Origin: Plebeiibacterium marinum
Lineage (GTDB): Bacteria > Bacteroidota > Bacteroidia > Bacteroidales > Marinilabiliaceae
Reading direction: 5' to 3'
Assembly: GCF_026013615.1 (NCBI RefSeq)
Contig: NZ_JAPDPI010000015.1
Location: 1 to 64,000, forward strand
DNA length: 64,000 nucleotides
The position numbers were made by a program, and so were the translations under genes. Shown here one piece after another: positions 35,861 to 57,752 of this stretch. The notes beneath the pieces are model-generated. The model ran no database searches. It worked only from the letters and a program-made list of their open reading frames with translations, and was not told the origin of the DNA. How positions within the stretch are numbered: position 1 is the stretch's first letter; the number at the start of each line of letters is the position of its first letter.

Positions 35861-38194
35861 TTATCTTTTTAAAAAGTTCTTTAAAGAAATTGTAGTAATC
35901 CCTAATATCTTTGACTTAAGTTGTAAACCATTGTCTGAAGTAAGCATAATTGGATTCTCTTCTTTGTACTTCAATGCAACTGACAAAATCATATTATCAG
36001 GAGAACGTTTGTCGAAATCATTAGGCAACAGAGATACATCAGCAAACTCATAAATGATTTCATGTGAATCCACATTGTTCAAGAAACGTAGGGCTTTCTC
36101 TGCATTTTGCTTATTTTGCTCGGTAAGCTTTATTTTAAGTTTATCCAATTCGTCTGTTACCTTGGCTGAAAGAATAATTGGATACTTCTTATCAATTCTA
36201 CTTATAATGTTTGGAAAGTTAACGAACACATTTGTATCAATGATATAATAGTTCTTCTTTTCAGGCTGAAGTTCTTTTTTCGTACGTTCAAACTTAGATA
36301 AATCAATATTGCCAACAACCTTCACCTTAATATTATCAGTTTTGACCGTTGAAGATTCTAGAATAGGTTGCACGTCCTTTTCTGGTTTATCGACTACCAC
36401 CTGACTTGACACAACTTTGTAGTTATTATCGACCGTATCACACTGCTTAATGAATTGAATCACGTTTGGTGAAACAGAATGGAAGTGCTGAAGGGGCATA
36501 TCCGAGATAATTAAGGTAGTGCTGCGAGATCTACTGGTAGCTACGTTGAATCTTCGCTCTTCCAATGCAAAGCCCGGGTTTCTGCCAGGAATATAAAGGA
36601 TTGCGTAGTCTACGGTCATACCCTGGATTCGGTCGATTGTTTCAATCGTAATATCCAAGTCCATATCTGCCAAAGAGAAACGCTTTTGAAGTTCTTTTAC
36701 TGTGTCCCGGAAAGGCGTAATTATAGCCAAACTCCGTTCAGGATACTTTTTTTGCATTGTATCTACAACCAAACGAATGATGTTGTTAGCTGTATCAGAA
36801 TAGAGACCATCTTTGAGGTCATTTGTACAAGTAAACAGCACCCCTCCCTCGTTAGAAAATAAAGAAGAACCTGCCTCGGAGAAGTCTTGATATTCTTTTT
36901 TTACAGAGATGAATTTGTTGCCATAAAAGATTTTTGTTAGTGCCGCACTCTTATCAGTAAGACGGAATGTGGTAACAATTCTGTATGCTTTTATATTTGA
37001 TCCTAAAGCGAAAGTCTTCAAACCTTCAATTTGAGTATTCACATTCCATGCGTTATAAAGCGGATTATTTAACTTTACAATTGGAGGAAGCTGCATGGGA
37101 TCACCAACAATCAGACACTTGTTTCCTAATTGTTTGAAAGCTGCTATTGTAGTCAAAAACGCTTGGGATGCCTCTTCTATAACAATGAGATCATAACTTG
37201 GCAATCCATTCAGCTTCATTTTATTTTCGCTGAATACACTAGAAAGGCCATAATTTGTAGCACACAGCAACTCACCATCTGGAACAAGTAAATCTGATCC
37301 GGCATTTTTCACACCCCCAATTTGCTTTTGTTCATCAATGGAGAGGTTTGTTTTGCTAATCTTTCCAGCTGGTATATATTTTTCCAAAGGTCTTTGCTTA
37401 ATCAACTCAACCAGCCCCTTATTTGCCATTGTTGTTACACATACATTATGACCGTTTTCCAAGTACGATGCTATTATTGTTGCAATGTTATAACTTTTAC
37501 CTGTTCCAGGAGGGCCTTGAACGATCACACTATCCTGCTCATCTAGTGTTTTAAGGATAGTATCAGAAATGTTAGAGGGATTGTTTTCATCATAAGCGAG
37601 TTCTTCCGGGCGCCAATCCTCGTAATCAATAAGAGGTTCCAACATCAATTCTTTGTTATCAGAAAAAACATCCATATATCTACTTAAGTTCTTGTAATAA
37701 TCCACCGGAGGAAAAGGATTATACACAATCACACTTAACGACTTTCCTTCTGATGTGGTTTTAACGAATAAATCATAAAGTCTTGTACTAATTCCCGAAC
37801 ATGCAACATAATCATATCCATCATTCTTACACTGGACATAATACATGGGAACAACATCTGATGCCGAGGAATGATAGTCTGGATTCTCACAAAACTCCTC
37901 CCAATGGCAGGTCCATTCAGTAGGGTGATTACCAAGTATTTGTCTGGCAGATTTCTTTATTACAGTAATTGATTTCTGTACCTTCAAACGAGGAGCCATA
38001 CGACGAGGAAACTTAAGTACTACCATTCCTGTTTCCGTTTGAACAGAATCTACATAGGCAATTGAAAGTTCATCAGATTTAAATAATTGGCGCATTTGTG
38101 ATTTATTGACCTTCTGCTGTTCTAGAATAGCTTCTTTGACCTGATCCGCAAAAAATGCCTTATAATTATCCACCTTTTTGTTTGTCGCCATCAT
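35861..38194 (-). CDS. SF1 (UPF1-like) helicase fused to a PIN nuclease domain
   Basis: Nucleic-acid helicase and probable endonuclease. Helicase motifs in order: Walker A QGPPGTGKSY (227-235), Walker B DLIVIEEASQAF, GDPMQLPP, TFRLTDKSAAL, IDRIQGMTVDYAI and FNVATSRSRSTTLI. A C-terminal PIN domain starts near residue 649 (YYIIDTNVFVNFPNI). All four acidic positions are present: Asp653, Glu682, Asp733 and Asp754. The nuclease should therefore be active, probably on RNA or single strands. The start codon overlaps the stop of the sacsin-type gene (TAATG), so the two proteins are made together and probably act together. Length 777 residues. Confidence 0.88.
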   Translation of the reverse strand: MMATNKKVDNYKAFFADQVKEAILEQQKVNKSQMRQLFKSDELSIAYVDSVQTETGMVVLKFPRRMAPRLKVQKSITVIKKSARQILGNHPTEWTCHWEEFCENPDYHSSASDVVPMYYVQCKNDGYDYVACSGISTRLYDLFVKTTSEGKSLSVIVYNPFPPVDYYKNLSRYMDVFSDNKELMLEPLIDYEDWRPEELAYDENNPSNISDTILKTLDEQDSVIVQGPPGTGKSYNIATIIASYLENGHNVCVTTMANKGLVELIKQRPLEKYIPAGKISKTNLSIDEQKQIGGVKNAGSDLLVPDGELLCATNYGLSSVFSENKMKLNGLPSYDLIVIEEASQAFLTTIAAFKQLGNKCLIVGDPMQLPPIVKLNNPLYNAWNVNTQIEGLKTFALGSNIKAYRIVTTFRLTDKSAALTKIFYGNKFISVKKEYQDFSEAGSSLFSNEGGVLFTCTNDLKDGLYSDTANNIIRLVVDTMQKKYPERSLAIITPFRDTVKELQKRFSLADMDLDITIETIDRIQGMTVDYAILYIPGRNPGFALEERRFNVATSRSRSTTLIISDMPLQHFHSVSPNVIQFIKQCDTVDNNYKVVSSQVVVDKPEKDVQPILESSTVKTDNIKVKVVGNIDLSKFERTKKELQPEKKNYYIIDTNVFVNFPNIISRIDKKYPIILSAKVTDELDKLKIKLTEQNKQNAEKALRFLNNVDSHEIIYEFADVSLLPNDFDKRSPDNMILSVALKYKEENPIMLTSDNGLQLKSKILGITTISLKNFLKR

Positions 38195-41100
38195 TAGAAT
38201 TCATTTAAATCTTCGTTACCATCTTCTTTCTCTGCCATCGCACCAACATAGTGAGCAAAGACTGCATCCATATTGGTGTGCGCCGCCACTCTAATGAGGG
38301 TATATGCCGAACCCTTAGCTCCGTTTAAAACCCCAGAGTAAAGGTTATTTACTACGTCTACTTTATCTTTTCCTGTTATCTTTATTACCACATCATCTTT
38401 TTCTACCAGTTGCAAAAATTCATTCGTTGAATTAATATAATGAAAGTTCTTGCCCTGACCATCAAGGTAAACGCAGATAGCCCATTTATTATCCATCATT
38501 TTTTTCCATACAGAAGGAGAGGTGTACATTACACCTCTAGCTGCACTACAAGCATGAATATATCTTCCATTTTTCAATGGATGGATCGATACATCCTCTG
38601 CATTTTTAATGAAATCCTCCAAATCTTCTTCTGGCTCTTCATGCAGTTCCTGGATTAAATTATTATATAAACGGAGTTTGGCGAGGTAGTTTGTATCTGC
38701 GATTTGCTCTGGTGCAATACCACACTGCTCGAGTACGTTAATTTCTTCATCTGTTGCTGGTAGTGATTCTAATTCCAGTGGAGTTCCATTGGAACGCATA
38801 AGATTTACTTCCTCTTTTGTATATGGTCTCGGAGGCCTTCTGGTTTGCGGTGATCTTGGAGTACTACCTAAAGGTTCATAATCTGAATTTTTCTCTATAG
38901 AACTGATGTATTCATCTTCATTCGATGTGTCGTAGTTATAATCATCTGAAATCTCCACTTTTTGATTAGCTGAATAATACGCATTTCCGGATCCGGTGTT
39001 ATTTCTATTGATCTCTTTATTAGTAAATTCCTTAGGTGAGGAAGAACTTTTTGTACTTGTATCTTCTGGATCTTCTGAATTCTGTATACCCTGCTCAATG
39101 TTTGGTTCATCCAAGTCTTCTTGGCTTTCCTCAATATCGTCTACTTGATCCGAGCGTGTAGAAAAGCTTGGTCGATAAGGCTCTTCAAATTCACTATCAT
39201 CATCTACTTTATTACCAGATAATTTACCTTTAATCCCCTCAACTAGTTTATCAATTTCATTTATAAAATTATCATCTAGTATTAGGGTATTCTGTTCTTT
39301 CACGATATCCAGGGCATTTTCCTGGCTGTCCATAATGTCTTCAATTAACTCTTCGGTGATGTCCTCTTTGTTGACATCAAGAAACTTCATATACTCTCGT
39401 ACAAACAATGTATATACGCGTTTACTATCAAGGGATTTTACAAAGTAAAAGTCATTGGATCCGTTTTGATGATAGAATTTCTTTAATGATTGGTTAATTG
39501 AATTGTCTGCATTATAGGTTATTAGAATTTTGCTGCATTTATAAAGTTTTAGCAAAGAAAGTTTTCCACAAAAATCGGCATATAAGGCTTGCCAATTTTT
39601 ATTATCTATAATACCTGCAATGATTAAAGCAAATAGCTTAAGGTCTTTATCTTTTTCAGAATAAAGTGAAACGTCAACGGGCTCCATTTTTAAATCATGG
39701 GCTGTTATTGTTTTTATACCCAATATATCACACGCTTTTTTAAACGAATCTCCAGATGGAAAATATAGCTTATTTACAATTCTTGAATTTGTGCCAAAAT
39801 ATTGATCCAAAGTCTTATCCGAATAGTCAAGCGCATACAAATCTTTAATATGGACCTTTTCATTCTTATTATTGAACCATAGTGCATGTTCATCTTCACG
39901 GTATTCATGTATTTTGGGATCAAAGGATTCATCATAATCTTTAATCATCCATTCATTCAATTTAGTTCTTCTGTCCTGACCCTGGATAGAAATCAATGCA
40001 TAGAGTGCATCAAGGAAGTTTAACGCGTTTTTGAATGGTAATTGACTAAACAATGACAAATTGTTAGATGTTTTGATATCAGGCAGATTGATTAACGGAA
40101 CTTTGTTTTCCCAATCTTCAATTGCTTTTACGTACCTTGACACTTCAACTCCATAGTATAGATCTTTCGGTGTTTTCATATCATCTTTTGTAGGAATGCA
40201 AGCCAGATCATCAAATAACTTATCGGAAATAAACTGATTGATGCGAGAGATGGATACTTCCTTTTTAATGAGGTACTTACTCCAAAAGTAAATTGAACAT
40301 TCTCTGTTTATAAGTAGATTTATGTCATTTTTTTGAAAATCGCAGTGAACATCTAGTTGTCTAAATAGCCTTCCTACATACTCTGTACATTCTACCTTAT
40401 ATGCATCACTGACATAATGAAGTGAATTTACACCACATAGTTCAAAATCGAAGGATGGATTGTAAACAGAGCCCATGGTTAAAGTAGAGGCTTTGCAGAA
40501 CTCATTGTGCCTATTCAGCAGTAATAGTGCATCTAATCCTTCCATATCCCTTAAAACCTCTCTCTCATTATTTCTAATACTAGACAGATCATTTATGAAT
40601 TTAAAGTGAAGCTCTCTTACAGAATCACAATCTTTAGTTTGCATTGCAATATAGCAATCTAACTTATGTTGTTGCCACTCACTTAGTGTAGACACATAAT
40701 CACTATCAACTTCAGCAATAAGATCTTTTATCAATCTACGTTCTTCAGCAGATTTAAAAGAAATCTGGTTTGGCAATTGTATGTATGAAAATGGCTCTGA
40801 TTTTTCGCAATCAATATAAATAGTATCTTTTATTGTGTAGAATTGGCCATCATGAGCTTTAATTCTTAGGTTTCTGAGTTTGGAAACCAATTCATTTTCA
40901 TAAAAAAATTCAAGTTTTTCTCTATTTTCAGAGAAAAGTTTTGGAAGGTTTTCGTCTTCAATTTTATCCAAACGCGGTATAACTGTCTGAACAAGAATAT
41001 CTACGATTTCATATTTTATACCAATTTTAACCCAAAATGATTTCCATTCTTCAATATCGTCATTTTCATCCAGATAAGTTGAGCTAATAAATAAAGCATT

Positions 41101-44100
41101 GTTATTGTATATTTTTACAATATGTTCAATACCAGCCCCATCCATATATTTATCAGAGAAATATACAGGTTCATCTAAACTCTGAATACTACCATCATTT
41201 AGCATGACTGGCAAGCTTGCCACATCTTCTATAAAATTATCAGAGACGTTATTTTTAAGCCAACGCCAAAATACTATGTTTAATATTTTATTTTGAAGAG
41301 TGTTACTGAAAGCTTCATCGTTGTTTTTCAGCCAATTAAAGAAATGGTTTATGGTGAACTTGGTATTGCCAAGTTGGCTTTCCCAGTATTCAACATTATT
41401 TTCAGTTTTATAATCAGGATCAATTATGTCTAAATCTGAGAACTCAACAAGACCTTTGTCAAATAGTTCTTTGGCTTTTGCACTTAGAGTTTTATGGCCC
41501 CCGGCAGAAACTGCTGCAATATCATGTCCATACAAAAACACCTTTGCATTAAGCATCTTTTTTTGCTGATCTGGGGTTAAAGCATTAATATGTTCAATTA
41601 TGAAATTATGAAAGGCTATGTTTTTATCTTTTTGATCTATCTTTTCGTTTATGGATTTTAACTCTGCAACAATCACATTATCAAAGAAATCTCCAAACTT
41701 AAAAGGCTTTACTCCAATTACAGCTAATGCTTTTGAATTACCATACTCTGGGTTACAGATTGAAACAATGTATTCTGGAAACCAATCGTTTTCAACTATA
41801 GCAACAAGTTCTTCATCAAAAGTATATAGATTATTAGTATTTGCATCAACATCGGAGGTATCTTTATCAACTAAAATAAGACCTTTAAAAATATCCCCAT
41901 CCTTTTCTTCCTCAAATATTAAATGATAGTTATCATCCAGATATTTGATAAAATCAATATTTTTAAGACCGTCAATATCTTTTGAATCGCTAGTATTAGC
42001 AATTATGTCTTTTAAATTCGTCTTTACTATATCCTTATAGAAATTATTTTTTGTAAGTTCATAAACCCATAACGTTTGAGAAATAAAACTCTTAAAATCA
42101 TATATGTTGTTATGCCCGTTATAATAGTCTTTATCTAACACATACATCCAACCATTATTGAGCCATTCTTTTGCAGAGTATTCATCGTAAAAGTTAGAAG
42201 GAAAGAAGATTTGCTCTTCTGATAAACACCATTTTACATCTCCTTCGAAATCATAAGTCTGAATAGTATAGTTTCGAAGATCACCATCTTTTAGAAAATC
42301 CTTGTTAGTAAAGCAATAGTCAATGAAGCTTTTGCTAGTATCAAAGTTTTCATTAATTGCTTCGCTAATATCATCTTGGAAATCTTCACAAAGAATAATG
42401 TCCTTAATAATAATTTCATCAGCAAAGTTTTTTACATTAAGGTTGTCTTGGAAATATTCACGAACACTTTTATCATAGTCAGATGAAACAAATTCGATAC
42501 ACACATTACTTAACCAGTCATAATCAGCTATATCTTGCCCATGTTCAGAACTAAAGAAAAGGACTGCTTCTGAAAAAGTAGACACTACTTCGTCATTGTC
42601 GTTAAAGAATGGTAATGATTCTATTTTATCATTACTTTCTATCTCATTCTTCGCCAAAAATTTAAAGAAATGAAGGGAAGTATCTTTTACTTTAAGCTTT
42701 TCTTTGGTAGCATTAATTTCACTAGGGGATAGAAGTACATCATTGATAAAATCTTCCGGTAAGAATTCAGAGAACTTATTTTCATACTCTTCATCCCAAA
42801 GTTCACTATTCTTAAGGAAATCTCTTGAGGCTTTTGACAAATGGGGGATATGTTCATCAAATACCTTTAAATCGATAAGATGTTCATCCATGTCAAAATA
42901 TAAGTCATCTGCTTTTCTTAATTCGCCAGTACCTTCCTCAATAAATATCTCTTCTTCAAAGAAATCTTTAAGTTTATCTTTCTTTAAGAGGAATTCAATA
43001 AATTGATTGTTGTTATTTTGATTAACTACCCACTCTCTAAAATCATCATCAGAACAAATTTCCTTCAAATCCTCAAAATACCAGATATTATCTTTACGTT
43101 CCAGGTCTTTCAAATATCTTTTTAAGAAAGCTTTGAATTCTCTATCGTTACGAAGAATTTTCAAAGGAAGTGATCCTTCGTAGCCGGTGATCTTGAAAAA
43201 ATCATCGTCGTCCATAATTCCTGATGACATCAAACCAGTCTCATCAAGAATGATATTTTGGACCAATTCGAAATGACCGTTTTCAACGGGTATCAGTTCA
43301 TCATTTACAATTCTTGTATCAAATCCAGCTTTAAATCTATCTATAAGGTTCTTATATTTTTTATGTTGACTAATATTGGTTTCAAATACAGGTACGAGAT
43401 TAAAAATTGAGTTTACTTTATACTTTTTCAACTCACACAAATCCTTTATCCAATCAAAGAATTTACTGCCTGCTATTTCGGCAATTTCCTCATTGATGTT
43501 TACTTGGTTAGAAAAATCAATTTCGATATCATCACGAGGACCTGTGGGAATCATATCGGTGTTCATTAAGAACTTGAACCCCCACGATGCTTTTGTTGGT
43601 AGATAGCAATATAATTGCGCTTCGTCAACCTCTTTTAGATTAGCCCCATCAATCTCGCAAGCAAAGGATACCCTTGTTTTATCAAAATTATAGTATTTTA
43701 GGGGAATCTTCAGTGCACCAGAGTCCTCTTGATCATCAATATCTGAATTTATTGATTCGGTAATATCTGCCGGTACTTTTTCGTCATAATTATTTACTTG
43801 CCAACGGTTGTTATTACACAAACATTGCAAATCAGGCTCCGACGTACCATTATAAAAGACCTTAACGGAAGATAAATTAGGAATAAATAAGATAGCTCGC
43901 TCGTTATGGAAAACGTCTTGGAACATATTTATATAATTTTTCCCAGTATCTCTAAGTATTTTAATGTTTTTTGGACGTAAGGCTAGTTTAACTCTGAATT
44001 TCTTATCCGCATTCGTAAACACATAGCGTTCACTTGGCGATAAATCTTTGTAAGGGGTCACAATAGGAAGAATCTGCCATGGGGTATCAACAATATCCCG

Positions 44101-45159: not shown

Positions 45160-45214
45160 ATTGAATTCTTATTTATTTTTTGAGATATGAGTATTATTTT
45201 TTCTAAAATAGAAA

Positions 45215-45879
45215 CTATAATTTCTCAAGCACATTATCTAGTAATTCACTTGCCTTATTTCTATATGAATGACTAACATCTTTTCTTCCCATAAACTGTC
45301 TAAAAAAAACAAAATTGATTTGGTTTCCATTTATTTCTGTTGTTTTACAGATATTATCAATTTTCTTATCAAAATTATTATCTAAAGGAAAATAGATATC
45401 AAGAATATGCCAACATGGATGAACTCCACTTACTATTATAGTTTTTAAATTAAGTTGAGACATTTGAAGAATAAGAGATTGTAAATGTGAACGGCAATTT
45501 CTAAAAATTGCATCAAAATTTTTAGTTGGCATTCCTTTTAAAGGGAATGTGCTTGACGAGCATTTTACTAAATCTGTAAAAGCGACACCATTGTCTTTAC
45601 CTATCGACTCGTACAAATATGGATACCATTTGTATATTGTACTAAAGTAACTGTTTAAACCTGGTCCTTGTCGTAGAATTTGAAGTGGGGAAAAATTATT
45701 TTCTCCAATTGATGTACTATAAGGGTTAACTCCAATGTATAAAACCTTGCTACTTAATTTTCCCCAGAAATATTGAGATGGAGGGATTCATTTGAAGTAT
45801 AAGAAAACGGTTTGTCATTTATATTTTGCAAATAATCTTTTGTGTTTTCAGCACAGTTTATATTATAGGGACATGACAT
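45215..45879 (-). pseudogene. Uracil-DNA-glycosylase-like gene broken by a one-base frameshift
   Basis: From 45879 the frame reads MSCPYNINCAENTKDYLQNI. Near 45785 the similarity moves to another frame, which continues PSQYFWGKLSSKVLYIGVNP to VAFTDLVKCSSSTFPLKG, then FRNCRSHLQSLILQM and TIIVSGVHPCWHIL. These are the layout of UDG-superfamily proteins (an N-terminal VLYIGxNP motif, LVKC, then a cysteine and an IIVSG strand). One missing base would restore a protein of about 221 residues. The second frame has no ATG of its own before the break, so a 133-residue protein from a TTG is unlikely. It sits between the KAP gene and the sacsin-type gene, same strand. Confidence 0.65.
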
Positions 45880-45929
45880 GAGTAATATATTTTATAAATA
45901 TGTTTTGTATGGACTGGAATAGTTATGGA

Positions 45930-47327: not shown

Positions 47328-47380
47328 TTGTTGGTTTAACTATATAGTTAGGTAAGTTTCTAAATTGCGCTTATTTTTCT

Positions 47381-48727
47381 CTATACATCATCAAACTCTG
47401 CAATAATATTAGTTGATACAACAGGATTACTAAAGCTAATTAAACTTTCAATGACATTGGATAATCCCAATCTGTCTTTCGTTTTGTAGGCTAATAGATA
47501 CAGTAAAGCTTCTGATGATAATAGGATAAATCTTTTAATATCTGTATTCCAGGTGATTTCATTCACAAAACTTTCAAAGTTTGATTTAAAGGAATTGCTT
47601 ACAATTATAAAACCTATTTTTTTATAACCTTCTTTTTGAAGCTTTGGACAGTAATGATTAATATATTCTCTAATTGCCCTGTCATCAACACCCATGCTAT
47701 ATCCATTGCTATATGCTTTTGCATCTACAATAAAAGCTGTATTTTCTTCCCGAAACCTTAATATTGCATCAGGATTACGGCCACTGCCTTGCCCAAGTAT
47801 TTCGACATCGAAATCTAGTTGTTTAAATATTTCTGCAACCAATTTCTCATAAGCACTCCCTTTTGCAGATGCAGATTTTTCAGTTTCAGCCCCCAACTCA
47901 ACTAGTTTAGCTACTTTGGGAATAAGATAGTCGCTCAGAGCAAAACTAGATGATATTTTAAGAGTAGTTACTTCCGGTTCTGCTTCATCAGTTTGTTTAG
48001 CAATAGGAGTAATCTTTTCAATGGCTTTACTTTCTTTAGGATTACCGTTATAATTCCAAAATGCATGCTCTACATCCCAGTTTGTTAGTTCCTGTTTTGA
48101 ATAATCGGATAATACAGATTTTATTTCTTCATTAAGATTATAAAAGTTCTTATAATTTTCTTGTTGGTCGTTTTTATCTTCCCAAATATTCAAAGCCTCA
48201 TAAGCTTGTAATTGAGAGGTGTAGTAGATAGGCCATTTACTGTAATCTGCTATTGACCAGAAGTATGATAAGAAGTAACCAACAGAACTTGAGTTAGGAA
48301 CTTTACGCTTGTCAGTAGCTTTGTTCCGTATATCCAAACAATAGCTTTCAAGCATCTTAATTTTTTTTACAGCTTCATTCAAGGTACCAGGTAAAAGAAT
48401 CACCTCTTGAATCAATTTTGTAAGGGAGGTTAAATTCTCTCCGGCTGTGCGTACCAGCAGATTAAAGAACATTTGGCCTTTTATCGCTGTAAATCCCCAA
48501 AGGTTATTACGCTTATTGTAACTATCTATTGAAGTTTTAAACTCTCGAATATCTATTTCATCATTCTGAAATTGAGAAATAATACCTTGTAAATAACCAA
48601 TAGCCTCTATTCGTTGAATATCAATATTGGGTAGCTCTTTGCCTTTGTTATCAAGAATTACTTTGTCTGAAGAATTGTAATTATCCCAAATGGATCTGAT
48701 TTGTTTTATAGTGTCTTGAGTAAGCAT
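47381..48727 (-). CDS. Restriction endonuclease with FokI-type cleavage domain
   Basis: The C-terminal 160 residues match the FokI cleavage domain by pattern. The active site reads GRNPDAILRF then AFIVDAKAYSNGYSMGVDDR (Asp320, Asp335, Lys337 from the ATG), compared with PD...DTKAYSGGYNL in FokI, and IGFIIVSNSFKSNFESF follows as in FokI. The conserved Glu in SAYEKLVAEIF precedes it. The N-terminal 250 residues are helical and look like a specificity or adaptor part related to AlwI-type enzymes, but I cannot name it. The ATG at 48727 lies five bases after the stop of the ATPase gene; a TTG at 48736 is less likely. FokI domains cut only as dimers, which implies controlled assembly. Confidence 0.82.
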   Translation of the reverse strand: MLTQDTIKQIRSIWDNYNSSDKVILDNKGKELPNIDIQRIEAIGYLQGIISQFQNDEIDIREFKTSIDSYNKRNNLWGFTAIKGQMFFNLLVRTAGENLTSLTKLIQEVILLPGTLNEAVKKIKMLESYCLDIRNKATDKRKVPNSSSVGYFLSYFWSIADYSKWPIYYTSQLQAYEALNIWEDKNDQQENYKNFYNLNEEIKSVLSDYSKQELTNWDVEHAFWNYNGNPKESKAIEKITPIAKQTDEAEPEVTTLKISSSFALSDYLIPKVAKLVELGAETEKSASAKGSAYEKLVAEIFKQLDFDVEILGQGSGRNPDAILRFREENTAFIVDAKAYSNGYSMGVDDRAIREYINHYCPKLQKEGYKKIGFIIVSNSFKSNFESFVNEITWNTDIKRFILLSSEALLYLLAYKTKDRLGLSNVIESLISFSNPVVSTNIIAEFDDV

Positions 48728-48732
48728 CTGAA

Positions 48733-50670
48733 TCAATTAAAAGGTTTTACGGTTATTAATTTTTCAGAGGTTTCTGTAAATGAAACTCCATCCCAAAAAC
48801 TTTCTTCTCCGGATTTATCTGATTTATTATAACAGTAATTGTATTTATTAATTATAGAATTGTTCTCATTATGCCAATCTCCTATATTTTTGTCCTTTGG
48901 CGGTAATTCTACACCCTCTTTAAAAATTTTAAAATTAATATTCCCTTTAGTCAAAACCTCTGTTTTTCCAGGCTCTTTAATTAAATGTGAATCATCTTGA
49001 ATCACAAGATTGTATTTGTAATTATCACCATGGTTGACACATTTAACTTCAAACTCTAATTTTGTTCCCTTTTTTAATATGTTTTGGGTTATTTCAATTT
49101 TTCTTAATTCGGTTAGAGTATTGATACAATCGCTTAGCTCACTGTAAAATTTTGGAACGTCATAACTATCGTGGCTTGATGGATTAAGAACAAATTCTCT
49201 GTGGGAATTTAGTCTTTCAAACAAACTTTTATCCAATCCATTACTTTCAGAGAATACAACTGCTTCAGATAGTAAATTGCCAAGGGCTTTTAATTTTCCT
49301 TCGTCGTTTAATTTATACCTATTGGGTAGTATCTCTTTAAGAAAATTTTCAGCTTCTTTTCTTAGGAAATTACCTGCAATTTCATATTCATTTAAATCAA
49401 GGTAACGAATCGCCTTTCCCAAATATGACTCTGAATCATAAATTAAAGGTAATGGAATCTCATTGTTTTTATGAGAATACATTTCAATGAACTTCCAATT
49501 GTTTTGTTTGTAATGTTTAATTTTATTCTGAGCCATTTGGAAGAAAAAACGGTCATGAGTCATTATAAGAAGCTGATGTCTATTGGCTTTTCTGAGGATA
49601 ATGTCGAGCACAATGTTTCGATGACTCATGTCAAGACTAACCAATAAATCATCTAAAACAAGCAAACTACATGCATCAGCAAAGGTTCCTCGTTCATCAA
49701 GCATAGCAAAACGAATTGACAATGCAATTGCAGTTAGTTTTGCCTCGTTTAAAAAGGTATGAGGATTTGGTATGTCACGTTTACTAATATCTAATTTGTC
49801 ATCCAGTAGTTCTGCTGTTAAAAAGATTTTAGGTTTATGTAGTTTTCCGTCTTTAGCTCTCTTGCCAGTGGGTTTATTAAAATCGCAAACAATTTTATCG
49901 GTGTTAAAGCTTATCTTAAATGATTCATTAAATTCTTTAGTAAGATAATTGTTAGTCGCTTCTGTAATTTTTAATAAATAATTTTTGAGTAAATCGACAA
50001 ATTTTGGCAGCAAAACCTCTTTATACATCTTGTATTCTTCAGAACTCTCGCTTATAGTATGTTTCATGCTCTTGTTGCGAGGCAAATCTTCATGAACAGT
50101 TAATATATAATCCCACCAGTCTGATGCATATGATTTTCCGGAAAGTTCACCATTTAATAAAGGATATTCTTCTTCAAAATCTATAAACATCAATAAATCT
50201 TTAACAAATAGAGGAAAGAGGTTTATTGGTTCGCTATTACGGAAATCATATAGTTTTGACAGGTATTTGTAGTTTAAAAAATCACTGGCATTTAAGGTTT
50301 TTCTAACCAAAGTACCACCTTTTGTATTGATGCCATTAGGACGATTTGAAATTACCTTTTGCGTTATAGTCCCGTCTGAGCTAATAAAATCTATGATTAT
50401 ACCAGATTCAGAACCATTTGTGGCATAGCGGTTTTTTAAACTTTCAGTTTCATCATCACTAAAATACTTTTTAATTTGATGATTTCCAGTTTTTAAACAA
50501 CTTTGTAAAAAGGTGTATAGAGCCCAATAGATCGTGCTTTTACCACTCCCATTTTCACCATAGAGTAATAAGTTATCTTTTTCCAAATCAATTTTATTCT
50601 TTGGGTATTCGGCTTCAGTTCCATAAAAAAACTTGAAATTTCTTAATGTAATCGATTTTATTCTTTGCAT
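48733..50670 (-). CDS. SMC/RecF-like AAA ATPase
   Basis: ABC-type ATPase of the RecF/SMC class without a long coiled coil. Walker A is LLLYGENGSGKST (35-47). After a helical middle region the signature region leads to Walker B SLLVLDDLLVSLDMSHRNIV and the H-loop LLIMTHDRFFF. The C-terminal 230 residues form a separate domain (LRKEAENFLKEILPNRY, FVLNPSSHDSYDVPKFYSEL) of a kind seen in defence ATPases related to OLD or RloC-type proteins. Its start overlaps the methyltransferase stop (TAATG), and the nuclease gene follows at once. It probably loads or gates the nuclease; this is inference. Confidence 0.83.
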   Translation of the reverse strand: MQRIKSITLRNFKFFYGTEAEYPKNKIDLEKDNLLLYGENGSGKSTIYWALYTFLQSCLKTGNHQIKKYFSDDETESLKNRYATNGSESGIIIDFISSDGTITQKVISNRPNGINTKGGTLVRKTLNASDFLNYKYLSKLYDFRNSEPINLFPLFVKDLLMFIDFEEEYPLLNGELSGKSYASDWWDYILTVHEDLPRNKSMKHTISESSEEYKMYKEVLLPKFVDLLKNYLLKITEATNNYLTKEFNESFKISFNTDKIVCDFNKPTGKRAKDGKLHKPKIFLTAELLDDKLDISKRDIPNPHTFLNEAKLTAIALSIRFAMLDERGTFADACSLLVLDDLLVSLDMSHRNIVLDIILRKANRHQLLIMTHDRFFFQMAQNKIKHYKQNNWKFIEMYSHKNNEIPLPLIYDSESYLGKAIRYLDLNEYEIAGNFLRKEAENFLKEILPNRYKLNDEGKLKALGNLLSEAVVFSESNGLDKSLFERLNSHREFVLNPSSHDSYDVPKFYSELSDCINTLTELRKIEITQNILKKGTKLEFEVKCVNHGDNYKYNLVIQDDSHLIKEPGKTEVLTKGNINFKIFKEGVELPPKDKNIGDWHNENNSIINKYNYCYNKSDKSGEESFWDGVSFTETSEKLITVKPFN

Positions 50671-53600
50671 TAGACAGTTAAAATAGGCATTAGTAGATCA
50701 CGTAATTCAATTTTCATTGCTTTAAGGTTGTTCCTTATCTCATTATCCTTCTCCCTAAGTTTTTGGTAGGCGTTGTGGATAATTTCGCGTTGTTCTTCCT
50801 CTTGTTTGCCTTCTATGCTTTCAAAATCACGCTCAGCATAGGTGATGAAGGAAATACCAGCTTTCTTAAATTCCTCAGGAAAATACACTTCAAATACCAT
50901 TGCATCAATTACCTCTTCAAAGATTTCAGATATGTGAGAATTTGGCACGAATTCATTTAGTTGTTTTAATTTCTTTAGCTTAAGAATGTAATCTACAATA
51001 GTTGAAATGGGATTGTTTATTTCTAATTGAGGTAGGGGAAACTCTTTTACGTCTTTTACTAATATCTTTGGGAATGCCCCTTTTGTAGCCTTAGGTGAAT
51101 TATTAAAATGAAAAAAAGTTGCAAGTCTTGAGTTGAGTATGCCAGTCAATGCTTTTATGGAATATTCTTTACTTGATTTTACAATTATGATTGCAGGGTC
51201 ATTATATAGCTCATCAGATGTAATAGCAGCAAATATTGAGGGGTTTGTGATTTCCCGGATAAGTACTCTTTCACCATCAAAAAATTTGGGGTGTCGAGGA
51301 TTCGCTATACCATCACAATAATCAATATATTCTTTTTTATTCCAAGAAACCTCATACCTTGTTACATCTGCTCCCCAAAGCCATTTTTTTAAAGATTCTT
51401 TTTCAAATGAATCATAATGATAAACTCTGTTTTTTATAATATCTTCAGATTGTCCTTGATATTTGTCGTAAGCAATAAGTCCCTGAGATACATCAGGAAA
51501 ATAGTCAATAAGTTGTTTAGTACCTAATTTAATTTTAGACACTATATCAATAATATTGGTGTCTAACATAAAAGCTAGCCCCCAATTTTGGTTCATTAGT
51601 TTTAGGTTCTCAACATTTATATGAACTCTAGGCTTATTTGATAACTCCTTGAATGAAGTTATATCCTTTGTTTTTCTATAACCTACATTTTTAAGATTGG
51701 ACTTTCTCCATGTATTTATAGTATTACGTACTGTTGCTGACTGAAAAATACTAAATTTAGTACAATCTAGAATTTCTATTAATCCCCATTTGTCGAGAAT
51801 ATTTAAGCGATATTGCGCCGCAAAAGTATTGAATAAATATGTGTTAGGGATTATATATGAAAAAATACCATCTTCCTTAAGTAATAAACGAGCTTTTTCT
51901 GTGAAGTAGTGATATATCTCATAATCTGGAAGTTTACCTATGCTATTTACTACAATATTTCTATAATCACCCTTTATAGAAACTCCATATGGAGGATTCC
52001 CAATAACAATATCAAAACCTTCAAAATTACCATTTACATCTAGTAGGTTTGGAAACTCAAAACGCCATTCTATAGCCTCTTGGTAAACCTTTGATTCCTC
52101 TCGAGCTTGCTTTTCTTTTTCGAGTTTAGTAATTTCTTTTTTTAGCTGAGCTGTAGTTTTTAATTTTTCAATACTATTAATTGTTTCATTTAATCTTCTT
52201 ATCTCTTCATCTTTATATATATTCGAGGAGTCTTGATAATTCTTAATTTTTTGCTTTAACTCTTTAATTCTTGATTTCTTGTCCAATGCTCCAAAAAGAT
52301 TATTACCTTCTTGAAGGATTAAATCTGCTTTTAGAAGGTTAAGCTTTTTAATTTCCTTATTAGAGAAATATGTTTTAAATGCAGCCTTAACATCTTCGAT
52401 AAGTTGTTTAAATTCATTTTTCTTATTGTGATTTGCTTCATGTAGATATTCTCTAACTATGGATTTATATTTTTCAAGGTCAACCTTGTTTTCTTTCTCA
52501 CGACCTTTATTAAATTCTCTGAATATTTCATCAATTGGAGCATCAAGGGAGTAACGACTAATTAATGAGTTACCACAAATAATCTTATAATCGAGGTTTG
52601 GTAAAGGTCGTGGTGTTGGTTCATCTACAACCAAAGAAAGCCAAAAACGTAACCTGGCAATATCAACAGCTCCTTCTTCAATATCAACTCCATATATAGA
52701 GTTTTCAATAATGCTTTCTTTCACCCTTGCCGGACTCCATGCTGTATAACCTCTTTCAAATGCGATTAATCCTTTTAATGCAAATATTTCATGCAACAAA
52801 CCCATAGGAAAAGCACCTGAACCAATAGCCGGGTCACATATTTTTACATCCTCTAATAATGCATCAATGGTACGAAGCTCCTTATCACTTAATTCAGCTT
52901 TTTGTTTTTTCTTTACAAAGCTGTTAAGCTTTTCTTTCTCGGTTTCAGCTAAATGCGTGCTCAGGTATTCAATTAAGGATTCTTGCGTCATATAATGTAC
53001 AATCTCCTTAGGAGTATAGAAAGCCCCTTTATCTTTATTGTCTTCCAGTAAGTTTTCAAAAATATGCCCAAGCATTTCAGGGTCAACACCAATGTCCTGG
53101 TCGTCTGGGCTGCTTTCGTCCACTGTGAAATTGTATTTACTAAAGAAAGCAAACAACTCAATAAAACGTTGCGGTTCAAATTGAATGTTTTCAGGTTCGG
53201 TTTCATCTTTTTCGAATAAACCACCGTTTAAATATGGTATGCGAGTATTTGTTACCGAAAACACATCATTATTCTCAGTTCGATCTTGGTTTAAAGTATA
53301 GAAGAATAACGGCACCAATGCTTTTTGGTAAAAATGGTTCTTATCAGGAAATTCCTCGAATAGCCGGAAAACAAAATCTCTCTGACCATTACCCCATTCT
53401 TCACCTAATGGCACACCCATCCAACCTTTCTTCTGAAGAAAATATAGGAAGACAATTCGACCTAGAAATTTCTTAACAAAATCACTTACTAGTTTTTCAC
53501 CTTTATCATGGTCTCCATATACTTGCTTAGTAAACAAAGAAAATGCTTTGGGATTATCCACAATATAAGCCACAAAAGTTTCGTATTGATGAAAATAACC

Positions 53601-54179
53601 AGCGTAAAATTCCTTTGAAAGCTTCTCTACCGAAAAAGCTTTTAGGACGTCTTCCATAGTAATATTTCTGGTTTCAATTTGATTGAATAGCCATTCAAAT
53701 TGGTTAACCGCTGTCTTTACTGTTTCAAATTGTCCAAACAAATAGGTATACCGCTTTGGATGTGTTTCTGTTTTTACCTCGTTATTGTCCTCATCCCAGT
53801 ATAGAGACTTCGATATGAAAGTAAATCGCCAATCTAAAGCTTTATGGTTGTGGTATGTAATAATGGCTCCGTCAATATAACCAAACCCGATTTCACTAGA
53901 CAATATATTTCGTAATCCAACCCTATTTTTGGTTACTTGTTGGTTTTCTTTTAAAACAACTTCGTAAAACTTGATTATTTTGCCATCAGCAAGCGATATA
54001 TCACCAAACTCCCAAATGTGTTCTACATCCTTGTGTTTAACTAAAGAATCATCTTTAAGGTCAATGGGTGTTTGAAAGTAGTTGTTATCAAGGTTACGGA
54101 ATAATTCTTTAAGGAAATTTTTCCAAATATTGCTCTTGTATGGAGCATTGAAAATATTTTTTAATGTATCTCTTTTCAT
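50670..54179 (-). CDS. Eco57I-type N6-adenine DNA methyltransferase
   Basis: Large class gamma DNA methyltransferase. GAFYTPKEIVHYM (385-397) precedes the SAM-binding motif I, ICDPAIGSGAFPMG (447-460). The catalytic motif IV is IGNPPYG (726-732). About 190 residues of charged coiled coil (560-705) are inserted between them. The C-terminal third has the specificity-domain style of type IIG enzymes (ILVKDVKEFPLPQLEI). The N-terminal 380 residues are shared with MTases of BREX/DISARM-like loci (NRVGLRNILSSEIGFGYIDG), with no convincing nuclease triad. It probably marks self DNA for the locus. Length 1,169 residues. Its stop overlaps the ATPase start, and its start is nine bases after the helicase stop. 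Confidence 0.88.
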   Translation of the reverse strand: MKRDTLKNIFNAPYKSNIWKNFLKELFRNLDNNYFQTPIDLKDDSLVKHKDVEHIWEFGDISLADGKIIKFYEVVLKENQQVTKNRVGLRNILSSEIGFGYIDGAIITYHNHKALDWRFTFISKSLYWDEDNNEVKTETHPKRYTYLFGQFETVKTAVNQFEWLFNQIETRNITMEDVLKAFSVEKLSKEFYAGYFHQYETFVAYIVDNPKAFSLFTKQVYGDHDKGEKLVSDFVKKFLGRIVFLYFLQKKGWMGVPLGEEWGNGQRDFVFRLFEEFPDKNHFYQKALVPLFFYTLNQDRTENNDVFSVTNTRIPYLNGGLFEKDETEPENIQFEPQRFIELFAFFSKYNFTVDESSPDDQDIGVDPEMLGHIFENLLEDNKDKGAFYTPKEIVHYMTQESLIEYLSTHLAETEKEKLNSFVKKKQKAELSDKELRTIDALLEDVKICDPAIGSGAFPMGLLHEIFALKGLIAFERGYTAWSPARVKESIIENSIYGVDIEEGAVDIARLRFWLSLVVDEPTPRPLPNLDYKIICGNSLISRYSLDAPIDEIFREFNKGREKENKVDLEKYKSIVREYLHEANHNKKNEFKQLIEDVKAAFKTYFSNKEIKKLNLLKADLILQEGNNLFGALDKKSRIKELKQKIKNYQDSSNIYKDEEIRRLNETINSIEKLKTTAQLKKEITKLEKEKQAREESKVYQEAIEWRFEFPNLLDVNGNFEGFDIVIGNPPYGVSIKGDYRNIVVNSIGKLPDYEIYHYFTEKARLLLKEDGIFSYIIPNTYLFNTFAAQYRLNILDKWGLIEILDCTKFSIFQSATVRNTINTWRKSNLKNVGYRKTKDITSFKELSNKPRVHINVENLKLMNQNWGLAFMLDTNIIDIVSKIKLGTKQLIDYFPDVSQGLIAYDKYQGQSEDIIKNRVYHYDSFEKESLKKWLWGADVTRYEVSWNKKEYIDYCDGIANPRHPKFFDGERVLIREITNPSIFAAITSDELYNDPAIIIVKSSKEYSIKALTGILNSRLATFFHFNNSPKATKGAFPKILVKDVKEFPLPQLEINNPISTIVDYILKLKKLKQLNEFVPNSHISEIFEEVIDAMVFEVYFPEEFKKAGISFITYAERDFESIEGKQEEEQREIIHNAYQKLREKDNEIRNNLKAMKIELRDLLMPILTV

Positions 54180-54188
54180 AGCTTAACG

Positions 54189-57100
54189 TTAAGAAGAAAA
54201 TGATTCAGATATTATTATCTGTGGCTTATTCTTCGTTGTTTTGACTCTTACTTTCGGTTTTTCATCAAATGATTCTTCTTTCAATTCTTCAAGTGGATAG
54301 GCTTTAATAATCTTTAAAATCTCGTTGTATTCATCAGCTCGTTTTAGCTTTTTACTGATACTTTCTTTTTTAAATTTGTTGATTTCACGAGGTAGTTTCT
54401 GAAAACGTCCTATCTCAATAGCTTTTTTAGCTTCTAACAATAATTCTTTTTCATCATCAGATGAAAATTCCTGTAACGATAAATCTCTAATGATTGCAAT
54501 AGCACGTTTTTCATTAGGTCCCTGTTTAATACTAGCTTTAGTTCCCAGACTTAATAAGCTTAAATCTTCAATAAAAGAACTTAAAGCTGTATTGATTTGA
54601 GTATAATGAAATTCAGGTAAGGCAATTGCTCTTTCTGTATATTCAGCTTTGTATAATCTTGCCGCTTCAACAAAGGTTAGTTCCTCAATTGAATTATCAG
54701 CATGCATTAAATAGTAGGCATCTCGTTTACGATCTTTAATGTAAGCAATTGTTTGTCCTTTAAGTGCTTTGTTGTTTCTGCCACAGCGAGCTCGGTGGGG
54801 AATTTTGTTTTTAATATATTGGTATTCTTCCGGATGTTCTTCTCTGAATTTTCGTAAGTAATTAAGATATTCTAAACGTTCATCTTTTTCTTCTTCAGGG
54901 AGCTGTTCAAATAGTCCGAATGAATCATAATCTTCCTGAGTAGAGTATATCTGGCTATCTTCTCCTAAAGCAGAGTGGAAGGCTTGCAATTTTATATATG
55001 CTTTTTTATTCAATTCTATCTCATTATCTGCTTGTTCTGTAGGGAAGAAGTTGTAGATATGAATAAAATTAGAAGGCGTACCAACTCGATTTACACGCCC
55101 GATACGTTGCATTAGTCGAGTTGAATTCCAAGGTATGTCGTAGTTTAAAATTACATTTGAGCGATGAAGATTTACTCCTTCAGCCAATACTTCAGTTGTA
55201 ATTATTATATCGTAATCATCTTTTCGTTCTGTTATAGGTTGATTTGCATCAAAGTTTTCCGCTATTATATCGGTAAGTTCTTTAGCATTTGAAGAATCAA
55301 CACTTAAAATTCTTTTAAATCCATCATTTTTAAGCTTATCTACAATGTGTGCTGTAGTTTCTTTTGATTCAGAGAATATTACAAGTTTGTTATTGTCGTT
55401 AATTTCAGAATTAAAAAACTCTCCTTTTAACTTATGTATTAAAGTGTCATATTTAGGGTCATAACTATTGACAGCTTCCCATTTACCAACTAGTGTTTCT
55501 AATATTTCATTATCCTTTTGTATGCCTTGAATAAATTCTTCGGAAAATTCTTCAACATCAAAAGCTTGAATTTTTGCCGGGTCATCTGAATTCAGTAGTA
55601 GTTCATCTAATTCTGCTTCATTATCATTCAATATAAATTCACTAACACCAAGTTTTGGAGCGATGTAAATTTTTCCATTTTCAATCATTTTTAGCATTGC
55701 CCGATTTGCATCATAATATCGACCTAAACTCATTCTAAAAGCATGGAACGAACTATCAATACGCTTAACTAAAAGGATTTTCATAATAACTGCCAATTGC
55801 TCAGAGATACGATCTGCCTGGCTTGCATTCACATTTGTTGCTTTTTTATATTGCTTTTTGGCTTCATCGCTCATAAATTTTATGGCTTGATAACGATAAT
55901 AGCCTAATCCCTTTTTAGTATCCTTTACCAATTTTAAAGTCTCATCATATAATTGGCTAACTTCATCATTTAACTGATAAAGTATTTGTTTGGGTGGTAT
56001 AATTTCAGGAAATGAAACTCCTTGTTCTTTGATATCATTCAAATAACTAGGAGTATTTCTGATATCGGTTCGAGTTCTTCTAACAATAACAGGTTCCAAT
56101 ACTTTTGTTCGTATCTCTTCGTAGATTTCTTTTACCCCCTGAGCAATTTTAATTTGGTCTCTTTCTTTTTTTAGTTTATTGTATTTATCAATTAAAGGCC
56201 GGAAAAAATGCTGTAAGTTTCCAACCTCTAAGGTTGATTGTTTAGAATCTTGAAACAAATAGAGTTGGTTTCGAATATCTTCCGGTTTATTGTTTAATGG
56301 AGTAGCTGTGACAAGAATAACTTTTTTCTTATCAGATAAATCATTTCCTTGCCTTTTACGTTTGGTTTTACATATTTTCTGTAACTGGTGAAACATCTCC
56401 GACTCATCAGAACGAAATTTGTGAGCTTCATCCACTATTATTAAGTCATAATCTTCAGGGTGTTTGATTTTATGAAGAGAACCATTAGTAATAAAATCGA
56501 TATTGGGTACTTCAAAATCCCTAATTGTTCTTCTCCAGCTTTTTTCAACTGCTGGAGGATAGATTATCAACGTTTTTGTTCTATATCCATTAGCAAAGTA
56601 GAATTTCTTAGCAATGATTGTGGCAATGATAGTTTTACCCAAACCTACCACATCAGCCAATACAAATCCGGAGTGTTTTAGTAGTTTAGAATAACCATCG
56701 TTTACTGCATCAATTTGATAAGCAAGTTTCTTATATCCTTTGGGAAGGTCTGTAATTGATTCCGGGTCGTATTCAATTGCTTTACCAAAGTATTCGATTA
56801 AAAGTTTAATATATATTTCAAATGGTGAAAATTCATCACTGATATGTGTTGTCTTTTTTAGCTCTTCAAGGGATTGTGGCAGAATATCAATAGCTTCCTT
56901 CCAAAGATCATCAAAGGTAGTACTAGCAAATACCACATCATCATAGTAAGGTAGTAAGACATTGAATTCAAAGTTCTTTTCGATACCCGAAACTGAAAGG
57001 TTAGATGACCCCGTAATTACCCTCCCAGGATTATGCTCATTCCATTGTTTTGGTCTGAAAATATAGATTTTTGCATGAATGTTTTTATCAGGATGTGCTT

Positions 57101-57470
57101 TAATTTCTATTTTACCAGAAGTGATATCATCAATGAATTGAACTATACCATCTTCAACATCTTTGGTATAATCACATTGTTCTATATCATTTCTTAAATC
57201 CCTTAAAAACTCTTCTCTAGTAACTTCAGTATTAAAATTAAACTCCAAACCTTTTCTAGCAGCTTCACTAATCAAATGGTCAACATCAATACCAACTAGT
57301 ATGCGTATCTTTTCAACATCTTTTAAAAATTCTCTAATTCTGAAATATCCCGAGGAACGAAAATAACCGACCAAGGCGTCAAAAGCATTCACTTCTGTAT
57401 GTTCAAAAATACCTTTGAATTTATTAAGAAGAGTGTTGTCCTCTTTATTTGTAAAAAACTTAGTACTCAT
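54189..57470 (-). CDS. PLD-domain SNF2/DEAD-type helicase
   Basis: Nucleic-acid translocase with an N-terminal phospholipase D-like domain. The PLD half-site is IHAKIYIFRP (His132, Lys134) with TGSSNLSVSG (Asn157) after it. The SF2 core starts with Walker A ADVVGLGKT (272-280), then LIIVDEAHKFR, LVTATPLNNK, and the C-terminal lobe with IIITTEVLAEGVNLHRS and MQRIGRVNRVGTPSN. The C-terminal 250 residues carry a conserved extension. One HKD motif means it would need to dimerise to act as a nuclease, or serves only in binding. It lies directly after the XRE gene and before the methyltransferase. Length 1,093 residues. Confidence 0.9.
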   Translation of the reverse strand: MSTKFFTNKEDNTLLNKFKGIFEHTEVNAFDALVGYFRSSGYFRIREFLKDVEKIRILVGIDVDHLISEAARKGLEFNFNTEVTREEFLRDLRNDIEQCDYTKDVEDGIVQFIDDITSGKIEIKAHPDKNIHAKIYIFRPKQWNEHNPGRVITGSSNLSVSGIEKNFEFNVLLPYYDDVVFASTTFDDLWKEAIDILPQSLEELKKTTHISDEFSPFEIYIKLLIEYFGKAIEYDPESITDLPKGYKKLAYQIDAVNDGYSKLLKHSGFVLADVVGLGKTIIATIIAKKFYFANGYRTKTLIIYPPAVEKSWRRTIRDFEVPNIDFITNGSLHKIKHPEDYDLIIVDEAHKFRSDESEMFHQLQKICKTKRKRQGNDLSDKKKVILVTATPLNNKPEDIRNQLYLFQDSKQSTLEVGNLQHFFRPLIDKYNKLKKERDQIKIAQGVKEIYEEIRTKVLEPVIVRRTRTDIRNTPSYLNDIKEQGVSFPEIIPPKQILYQLNDEVSQLYDETLKLVKDTKKGLGYYRYQAIKFMSDEAKKQYKKATNVNASQADRISEQLAVIMKILLVKRIDSSFHAFRMSLGRYYDANRAMLKMIENGKIYIAPKLGVSEFILNDNEAELDELLLNSDDPAKIQAFDVEEFSEEFIQGIQKDNEILETLVGKWEAVNSYDPKYDTLIHKLKGEFFNSEINDNNKLVIFSESKETTAHIVDKLKNDGFKRILSVDSSNAKELTDIIAENFDANQPITERKDDYDIIITTEVLAEGVNLHRSNVILNYDIPWNSTRLMQRIGRVNRVGTPSNFIHIYNFFPTEQADNEIELNKKAYIKLQAFHSALGEDSQIYSTQEDYDSFGLFEQLPEEEKDERLEYLNYLRKFREEHPEEYQYIKNKIPHRARCGRNNKALKGQTIAYIKDRKRDAYYLMHADNSIEELTFVEAARLYKAEYTERAIALPEFHYTQINTALSSFIEDLSLLSLGTKASIKQGPNEKRAIAIIRDLSLQEFSSDDEKELLLEAKKAIEIGRFQKLPREINKFKKESISKKLKRADEYNEILKIIKAYPLEELKEESFDEKPKVRVKTTKNKPQIIISESFSS

Positions 57471-57476
57471 AGATGC

Positions 57477-57752
57477 TTATAACTTCATTTCAACAAAACT
57501 TAAAGTTGCTTTCGCTACTTTCTCGTCTTTAATTATTTCGTAAATCTGACCCGCCAACCATAAGGTCAACAACTCATCCACGTCAATCTCGAATATTCTG
57601 GCTAACTCAATTACCTGTTCACGTTTTGCTCTTCTTTCGCCACGTTCAATCTTGCTGTACATGGGAGAGTCAATCTCTAAAGCAGCAGCTAATTGTCGTT
57701 GAACCATTCCTTTTTCCTCACGGAGTTCTTTGATACGTTTTCCTACAAACAT
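57477..57752 (-). CDS. XRE-family controller protein of the restriction-type operon
   Basis: 91-residue helix-turn-helix protein (GKRIKELREEKGMVQRQLAA, then DSPMYSKIERGERRAKREQV). Size and first-gene position fit the controller (C) proteins of restriction-modification systems, which time nuclease expression after entry into a new host. The C-terminal segment DELLTLWLAGQIYEIIKDE is typical of the Bacteroidota group that precedes methyltransferase operons. The helicase gene starts six bases downstream. A C-box-like site lies upstream. Confidence 0.88.
   Translation of the reverse strand: MFVGKRIKELREEKGMVQRQLAAALEIDSPMYSKIERGERRAKREQVIELARIFEIDVDELLTLWLAGQIYEIIKDEKVAKATLSFVEMKL

Follow-up and report, generated by a model that had tools for sequence, protein, structure and literature searches.

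A 22-kb gene run in Plebeiibacterium marinum is probably a stack of separate defence modules, led by a PLD-SNF2/Eco57I restriction-modification unit with a candidate RNase guard

Class 1 DISARM consists of DrmA, DrmB and DrmC together with DrmD and DrmMI, and Tiamat is a single-gene system. PrrC, which accompanies the type I restriction-modification (R-M) system EcoprrI, and RloC carry an RNase domain with the order Arg-x3-Glu...His after an ABC ATPase, and are encoded together with an R-M system (PMC2610378, PMC3710099). The RloC motif was given as 'Arg-X3-Glu-X36-52-His', often with Ser before His, and the PrrC triad as R320/E324/H356; alanine at any of the three RloC triad residues abolished activity (PMC2610378). 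Both RNase domains were placed in HEPN, R-M systems were proposed to check such RNases, and R-M plus HEPN has been in print as a two-tier defence since 2013 (PMC3710099). The DUF499-centred BR Type 2 and Hma systems combine an HKD-SNF2 helicase, a methyltransferase and an ATPase (PMC12839542, PMC8565338), the HKD nuclease of Type-2 BR helicases being N-terminal (PMC12839542). Here we analysed a run of genes at 35861-57752 in a 64,000-nucleotide stretch of P. marinum DNA, called the window (assembly GCF_026013615.1, contig NZ_JAPDPI010000015.1, positions 1 to 64,000), which an earlier note had described as a nine-gene locus of defence-type enzymes. The 22-kb run is probably a stack of separately travelling anti-phage modules in a mobile element and not one machine. 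Our best explanation, to which we give a probability of just under 0.6, is that an integrative element carries it as cargo and that it contains three or more separate defence modules. As judged from the genes, g1-g4 would form the lead unit (A), perhaps joined by g5 (unit B), and would be an R-M system with a built-in guard; g6 (unit C) and g8-g9 (unit D) would be independent. Most units are related to known kinds, namely PDC-S20, Tiamat, and PrrC/RloC beside an R-M system. The genes are as follows.

57477-57752, minus strand: g1, XRE/HTH_3 regulator, 91 amino acids (aa); HTH_3 E 7.8e-13
54189-57470, minus strand: g2, PLD-SNF2 helicase, 1093 aa; PLDc_2, SNF2 and Helicase_C (Pfam; 6.3e-17)
50670-54179, minus strand: g3, Eco57I-type N6-adenine methyltransferase with a TaqI_C specificity domain, 1169 aa; Eco57I 1.6e-29, TaqI_C 5.3e-19 (Pfam)
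48733-50670, minus strand: g4, ABC ATPase (Rad50/RecF type) with a C-terminal HEPN-like domain, 645 aa, proposed RNase guard; SMC_N/RecF 3.8e-11
49075-49449, minus strand: HEPN-like domain of g4, residues 408-532, with R437, E441, N496 and H500 (alignment, AlphaFold2, Pfam on members, Foldseek)
47381-48736, minus strand: g5, nuclease with a FokI-type cleavage domain, 451 aa; PF09254 E 6.9e-11
45930-47327, minus strand: g6, KAP ATPase, 465 aa, PADLOC candidate PDC-S20; KAP 7.9e-41, PDC-S20 E 5.2e-156
45215-45879, minus strand: g7, broken gene, read as a 41-aa piece in one frame and a 182-aa open stretch in another (reading of the open reading frames, ORFs)
38194-45159, minus strand: g8, sacsin-type giant, 2321 aa, Tiamat (TmtA) relative; TmtA E 2.2e-84, NF047352 E 4.6e-19
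35861-38194, minus strand: g9, UPF1/IGHMBP2-like SF1 helicase fused to PIN_4, 777 aa; AAA_11/AAA_12, PIN_4 7.6e-20

When the ORFs were reread, the single direction (minus strand), the gene order and the small gaps or overlaps described earlier were confirmed. Gaps measured 6 nucleotides (nt) between g1 and g2, 9 between g2 and g3, 53 between g5 and g6, and 55 between the last g7 frame and g8; overlaps measured 1 nt (g3-g4), 4 nt (g4-g5, with the TTG start) and 1 nt (g8-g9). Eight of the nine genes were intact, g7 being a remnant in two frames. Pfam and NCBIfam agreed with the earlier domain calls (XRE, PLD-SNF2, Eco57I, SMC/RecF, FokI, KAP, sacsin, SF1-PIN), except that the UDG label of g7 was unsupported by Pfam; its 182-aa open stretch matched no family, UDG included, at E 0.05. 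A single transcript across the genes is predicted to be possible because no terminator-like site was seen on the minus strand between genes at 44500-58200 (4 sites in the scan, 5.1 expected by chance). A promoter scan was uninformative (63 found, 63.9 expected).

A single sample of 395 Bacteroidota genomes was queried with g5 (E 1e-5), g4 (1e-10), g8 (1e-10) and g9 (1e-30); the matched genomes numbered 2, 14, 5 and 2, respectively, the window genome being in each list. Outside the window genome, none of the 13 g4 genomes was shared with the genomes of g5 (1), g8 (4) or g9 (1). Among 149 genomes of the same order, 2 more had a g9 relative, and no second genome with the whole nine-gene set was present among the genomes searched. 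Searched against 20 relatives, the DNA at 38000-57700 matched 7 of them, by short stretches only, of which the longest measured about 460 bases (68%). When a species collection was searched for g2 relatives with a nine-copy alignment, at least 584 were found; the best 80 loci were kept and spanned many phyla, including the archaeon Methanoculleus (L089). None of these 80 had a BLAST match (1e-5) to g5, g6, g8 or g9 in the locus DNA examined.

Co-occurrence in the 395 genomes led us to reject a single nine-gene system, one of two options offered earlier. It is also very improbable that the nine genes were recently assembled in this lineage and work as one large system: their common direction, short gaps and lack of a terminator-like site would suit such a unit, but the modules stood apart in other genomes, a second genome with the set was not seen, and the 20 relatives lacked the locus DNA beyond short matches. 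The second option, two systems placed end to end, came nearer, although at least three units are proposed here. Confinement to this strain was found for the whole set in the genomes searched, but not for single modules. No named system with this gene set emerged among the matches listed for PADLOC profiles (run on g1-g8) and NCBIfam (all nine proteins).

In unit A, g1 is the probable controller. An XRE gene was directly before g2 also in loci L043 (46%), L068 (52%), L037 (44%), L057 and L079, and a g1 relative (65% identical) preceded an hsdM-hsdS operon in genome G542. From its motifs, g2 is a probable translocase-nuclease: H132, K134, N157 and E168, which we take to be the active-site residues of BfiI/NgoFVII-type PLD nucleases, were invariant in 9/9 aligned copies, and the helicase motifs were kept. 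Both methyltransferase motifs of g3 were present in 10/10 aligned copies. DNA cutting is tentatively assigned to g2 rather than g3 because the N-terminal region of g3 reads VLK in the window copy where several relatives show ExK. In 63 of the 80 best g2 loci, a methyltransferase gene in the same orientation lay no more than 2.2 kb 3' of g2; it was upstream in 3, and in 14 none was found in the available DNA, in many at a contig end. Over 17 triples, distance correlations were r 0.62 for g2-g3 (p 0.0002), r 0.39 for g3-g4 (p 0.0004) and r 0.24 for g2-g4 (p 0.011). Some loci carried a gene with Schlafen AlbA_2 and HATPase_c_4 domains between g2 and g3 (L044, L047, L070 and L101, all four tested of nine same-strand inserts listed), and L135 likewise had such a gene between its PLD-SNF2 and methyltransferase genes.

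The gene following g3 varied. Among the 63 g2-g3 loci, it was g4 in 6 and another same-strand gene within 100 nt in 19; 22 had neither, and 16 had too little DNA. Fifteen of the 19 other slot genes were run against Pfam (L050, L076, L082 and L106 were left out), revealing AbiEii, ApeA-HEPN (L085), SIR2 twice, a TaqI_C-like gene, putAbiC, PRTase-CE, a DUF1016 nuclease, a PLD protein, a full-length AAA_13 RloC-type protein (L101), KAP and AAA_21; those of L062, L105 and L092 gave nothing clear. Ribonuclease-type HEPN families accounted for 2 of the 15, besides the six g4. The RloC-type protein of L101, with R654, E658 and H703 or H705, came directly after g3. Seen from g4, the coupling was tight: g3 preceded it in 13 of the 14 g4-bearing Bacteroidota genomes (in G303 with a 101-aa ORF between), the exception being a g4 remnant in G201. 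In the plasmid and viral collections the g3-g4 order recurred in L129, L130, L131 and L135 (the g4 of L129 and L131 being identical); L136 had a g3 fragment only, and L132 started at a contig end. The g4 gene itself was broken in G177 and G141, and judging from the reading frames it seems dispensable, because G141 keeps open g2 and g3 beside a g4 broken by a stop. Directly 3' of g4, L028 (4325-7224) carried a SMEK-domain gene and a weak Piwi-domain gene, a short-pAgo-like pair, and L068 (18344-21129) a DUF4062 gene and a 474-aa gene.

The N-terminal part of g4 is a Rad50/RecF-type ABC ATPase by Pfam and by matches to Rad50, SMC and RecF structures. In this protein, which the earlier note called a gating ATPase, a further, HEPN-like C-terminal domain had been overlooked. 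R437, E441, N496 and H500 were invariant in 23/23 g4 rows, of which 21 are distinct, within a domain of little other conservation; an unrelated AAA protein in L081 (364 aa) was not counted. The residue before His was Ser, Ala or Cys, and the Arg-x3-Glu...His order was that of the PrrC/RloC triad in all 23 rows. An AlphaFold2 model of the 125-residue domain from 16 sequences had a pLDDT of 86 and formed a HEPN-like helical bundle. The highest probabilities among the 50 Foldseek matches listed were those of 1o3u (0.93), 2hsb (0.87), 2q00 (0.85) and 1ufb (0.84). The titles of 1o3u and 2hsb name HEPN, and we take 1ufb to be a HEPN structure as well; 2q00 is listed as HEPN in PMC3710099. Over 16 members of the g4 domain, the two most frequent Pfam families were DUF4145 (6/16, best 1.1e-4) and HEPN (4/16, best 1.3e-3). 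We regard g4 as a likely ABC-HEPN guard, its RNase activity being predicted.

Several observations weigh against this reading of unit A. The Glu-His spacer of g4 was 56-64 in 15/17 and 109 or 114 in 2/17, outside the 36-52 of RloC and unlike the 31 of PrrC; the zinc hook CXXC was present in 0/18 g4 proteins scanned; and the usual HEPN R-x4-6-H appears as N-x3-H. The Foldseek HEPN matches had E values of 0.35-1.0, none significant, and for the window copy of the g4 domain Pfam gave no family even at E 10. On g4, AAA_13, to which the L101 RloC belongs in Pfam, stayed below its cut-off (30.2 vs 36 bits). When the g4 domain and this RloC were compared as profiles, the match was not significant, although the two R-x3-E pieces came into register. 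The R-M partner also differs from those of PrrC and RloC, being PLD-SNF2/Eco57I. Furthermore, g4 was next in only 6 of the 47 g2-g3 loci with enough DNA; the R-M pair does not need g4, because most judgeable loci are without it. Finally, g5 was beside g4 only in the window. It is possible, although unlikely, that g4 instead belongs to the restriction complex as a clamp that senses DNA or as a gating ATPase (RecF/Rad50- or PtuA-like) and permits g2 or g5 to cut, with a C-terminal domain that docks and has no RNase activity. The structure matches of the ATPase part and the insignificant Foldseek E values agree with this, as do weak PtuA and Mad3 profile matches (PADLOC). It accounts less well for R/E/N/H invariance in 23/23 rows amid little other conservation, as expected for an active site, or for a canonical RloC in the same slot in L101. 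MADS was rejected: mad3 was matched over the ATPase part of g4 only (46 bits), and no other Mad profile was among the matches listed.

Unit A was compared with the known helicase-methyltransferase systems. It shares with class 1 DISARM relatives of the SNF2 helicase DrmD (g2, E 4.5e-34 in PADLOC and 4.3e-44 in NCBIfam) and of the adenine methyltransferase DrmMI (g3, 1.6e-25; PglX was matched weakly in PADLOC), and g2 also matched HmaA (5.7e-31); the helicases of Type-2 BR systems have their HKD nuclease at the N-terminus (PMC12839542). It is nevertheless improbable that unit A belongs, as a derived member, to class 1 DISARM, BREX or the DUF499-centred Hma/BR group. The g2 score against the NCBIfam DrmD model was 151 bits at a cut-off of 610, the best g3 matches in PADLOC were Type IIG enzymes, and no DrmB, DrmC, PglZ, BrxC, DUF499 or DUF3780 was among the matches listed (for g2-g4 in PADLOC, the best 25 each); DrmA was only a weak cross-match of g2. 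The Hma and DUF499-centred BR systems come closest to unit A in overall plan. Unlike theirs, however, the ATPase of unit A is of ABC type, with no DUF499 match in g4 (Pfam, 0.01), the methyltransferase is of Eco57I type and DUF3780 is missing. Membership of DISARM, BREX and Hma/BR was rejected, as core genes were missing from the matches listed.

In g5 the PD...DAK motif was kept, also in the one close relative found (49%, in G126), which lay directly after an HsdM-type N6-methyltransferase gene, itself preceded by a Fic gene. The N-terminal part of g5 matched a haloarchaeal plasmid (28%, E 2e-27), the match starting upstream of an AAA ATPase gene and running into it. Going by such neighbours, g5 may be a nuclease added to R-M systems; as a fixed part of unit A it was rejected, none of the best 80 g2 loci having a g5 match. 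Residues 1-463 of g6 aligned to positions 1-462 of the 464 of PDC-S20, a candidate family, with no notable sequence difference. QatABCD was rejected for g6: QatA scored 55 bits against a cut-off of 600, and no other Qat match was among those listed.

The TmtA match of g8 fell in 3 stretches, the best covering 4-423 of 1302 positions, and NF047352 scored 68.7 bits (cut-off 50). Tiamat differs in that g8 has 2321 aa against a 1302-position profile and is paired with a helicase-PIN gene. TIGR00376 scored 87 bits on g9, below its cut-off of 349. By gene order and similarity, the g8-g9 pairing appears to recur in one clear and one weak further case. In G194, a g9 relative (40-42% identity, PIN kept) overlapped a preceding sacsin-like gene; in G429, an SF1 helicase without PIN followed a 1532-aa protein whose likeness to g8 was weak (30% over 100 aa, E 2e-5) and which had no sacsin family in Pfam. 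A g9 match was absent from G013, G316 and G342, three of the five g8 genomes. In plasmids, no g9 relative was found at E 1e-40, and g8 had one weak match with no helicase gene annotated beside it; in viral contigs no relative of either was found. In G520 (L128 3778-6555, minus strand), a PIN domain sharing 57% identity with the g9 PIN was part of a 926-aa OST-HTH/LOTUS protein beside a helicase-like gene. The G194 run (L041 1-16009) comprised an HsdR-type gene, a DUF1016 nuclease, a 692-aa Piwi protein, the sacsin-like giant and the helicase-PIN gene, a stack in which the g8-g9 relatives come after a different R-M system.

The surroundings of the run suggest a mobile element. A tyrosine integrase gene (contig 67871-69058) adjoins the 3' end of mnmE (about 69206-70648), and copies of a direct repeat of 17 base pairs (bp) mark the other side.

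32345-32361, plus strand: 17-bp direct repeat, identical to the end of mnmE on its 3' side (contig 69204-69220), putative left element end
30293-30309, plus strand: one-mismatch copy of this 17-bp repeat, putative outer boundary on the left

When up to 3 mismatches were allowed, the repeat matched the window 3 times; shuffles had a mean of 0.48 and never reached 3. The genes g1-g9 are the putative cargo of a 36.9-kb integrative element (32345-69220) at the mnmE 3' end, whose ends and mobility we infer from the DNA. The putative element also carries HipS/HipT, a ParA-type gene and a DUF5712 gene, the product of which is presumably a mobilisation protein. Between the repeats at 30293 and 32345 lie an HTH-DUF6922 gene and an AbiEii nucleotidyltransferase gene (30644-31800, plus strand). 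When the mnmE end was read in nine relatives, G546 had XRE-AbiEii genes (70 and 77% identical to the 30644-31800 pair) between two repeat copies, G548 had HipS and HipT (100 and 97% identical), and G542 had the g1-like XRE gene (65%) before hsdM, KilA-N and hsdS genes. Integrases were found there in G544 (74% identical), G545 (a piece) and G423 (38% identical); G541, G543 and G547 had no integrase match and no module-gene match. Sister species have different cargo at the mnmE 3' end, a putative hotspot for integration. An empty-site test through the AcrB-type gene left of the element was unusable, that gene not being beside mnmE in the relatives.

Other genes were noted in and around the element. 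A small HTH gene (32639-32860), a HipA N-terminal domain gene (32857-33189) and a HipA_C kinase gene (33182-34132), all on the plus strand, make up a HipBST-like toxin-antitoxin set of three parts. The HTH gene is nearly duplicated at 31988-32218, across the 32345 repeat. On the plus strand of the window, a 116-aa ORF (62412-62762) looks by eye like a piece of a replicative helicase, and a 235-aa ORF (61540-62247) had no Pfam match. Further small genes and the DUF5712 gene are in contig 64001-70648.

In the proposed mechanism, g3 would place N6-methyladenine on host DNA wherever its TaqI_C domain recognises its site, and g2 would move on unmarked invader DNA and cut it via the PLD domain, with g5 as an extra cutter. 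At rest g4 would be silent, held by the R-M proteins or by its own ATPase. When a phage blocks or overwhelms restriction, g4 would fire its HEPN-type RNase, most likely at tRNA anticodons, and translation would stop. The PDC-S20 relative g6 would be an independent system travelling along, as would g8-g9, in which a Tiamat-like sacsin ATPase is joined by an SF1 helicase-PIN protein that is probably an RNA-cutting effector. What is established, at the level of sequence and predicted fold, is the recurrent g2-g3 and g4-g3 coupling, the catalytic motifs of g2, g3 and g5, and the helical domain of g4 with its R/E/N/H residues. We infer RNase activity, tRNA targeting and phage defence for unit A.

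Among the papers that literature searches listed, none described the g2-g3-g4 set in its title or abstract, although it may be drawn in the figures or additional files of PMC3710099. The novelty seems to lie in the dedicated g4 family, in how tightly it is coupled to this type of R-M system and in the exchangeable slot. A wider proposal is more tentative, and its parts would jointly fall somewhat short of an even chance: PLD-SNF2/Eco57I systems would be a widespread class of R-M whose effector slot, 3' of the methyltransferase gene, is exchangeable and is filled in one lineage by a new ABC-HEPN RNase family that senses restriction failure and stops translation, and elsewhere by RloC, ApeA, SIR2, AbiEii or KAP, while the sacsin giant and the UPF1-like helicase-PIN protein would form an RNA-targeting defence system of their own. 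Of the leads from this locus, the RNase-guarded PLD-SNF2 module is the stronger and the sacsin/helicase-PIN pair the weaker; the stacked island is ordinary. For defence islands, tight co-directional packing in a mobile element is no proof of one system. If the reading of unit A is true, guarding of restriction by a suicide RNase, best known from PrrC/EcoprrI, would be a design that recurs, its modular slot lying within a compact gene set.

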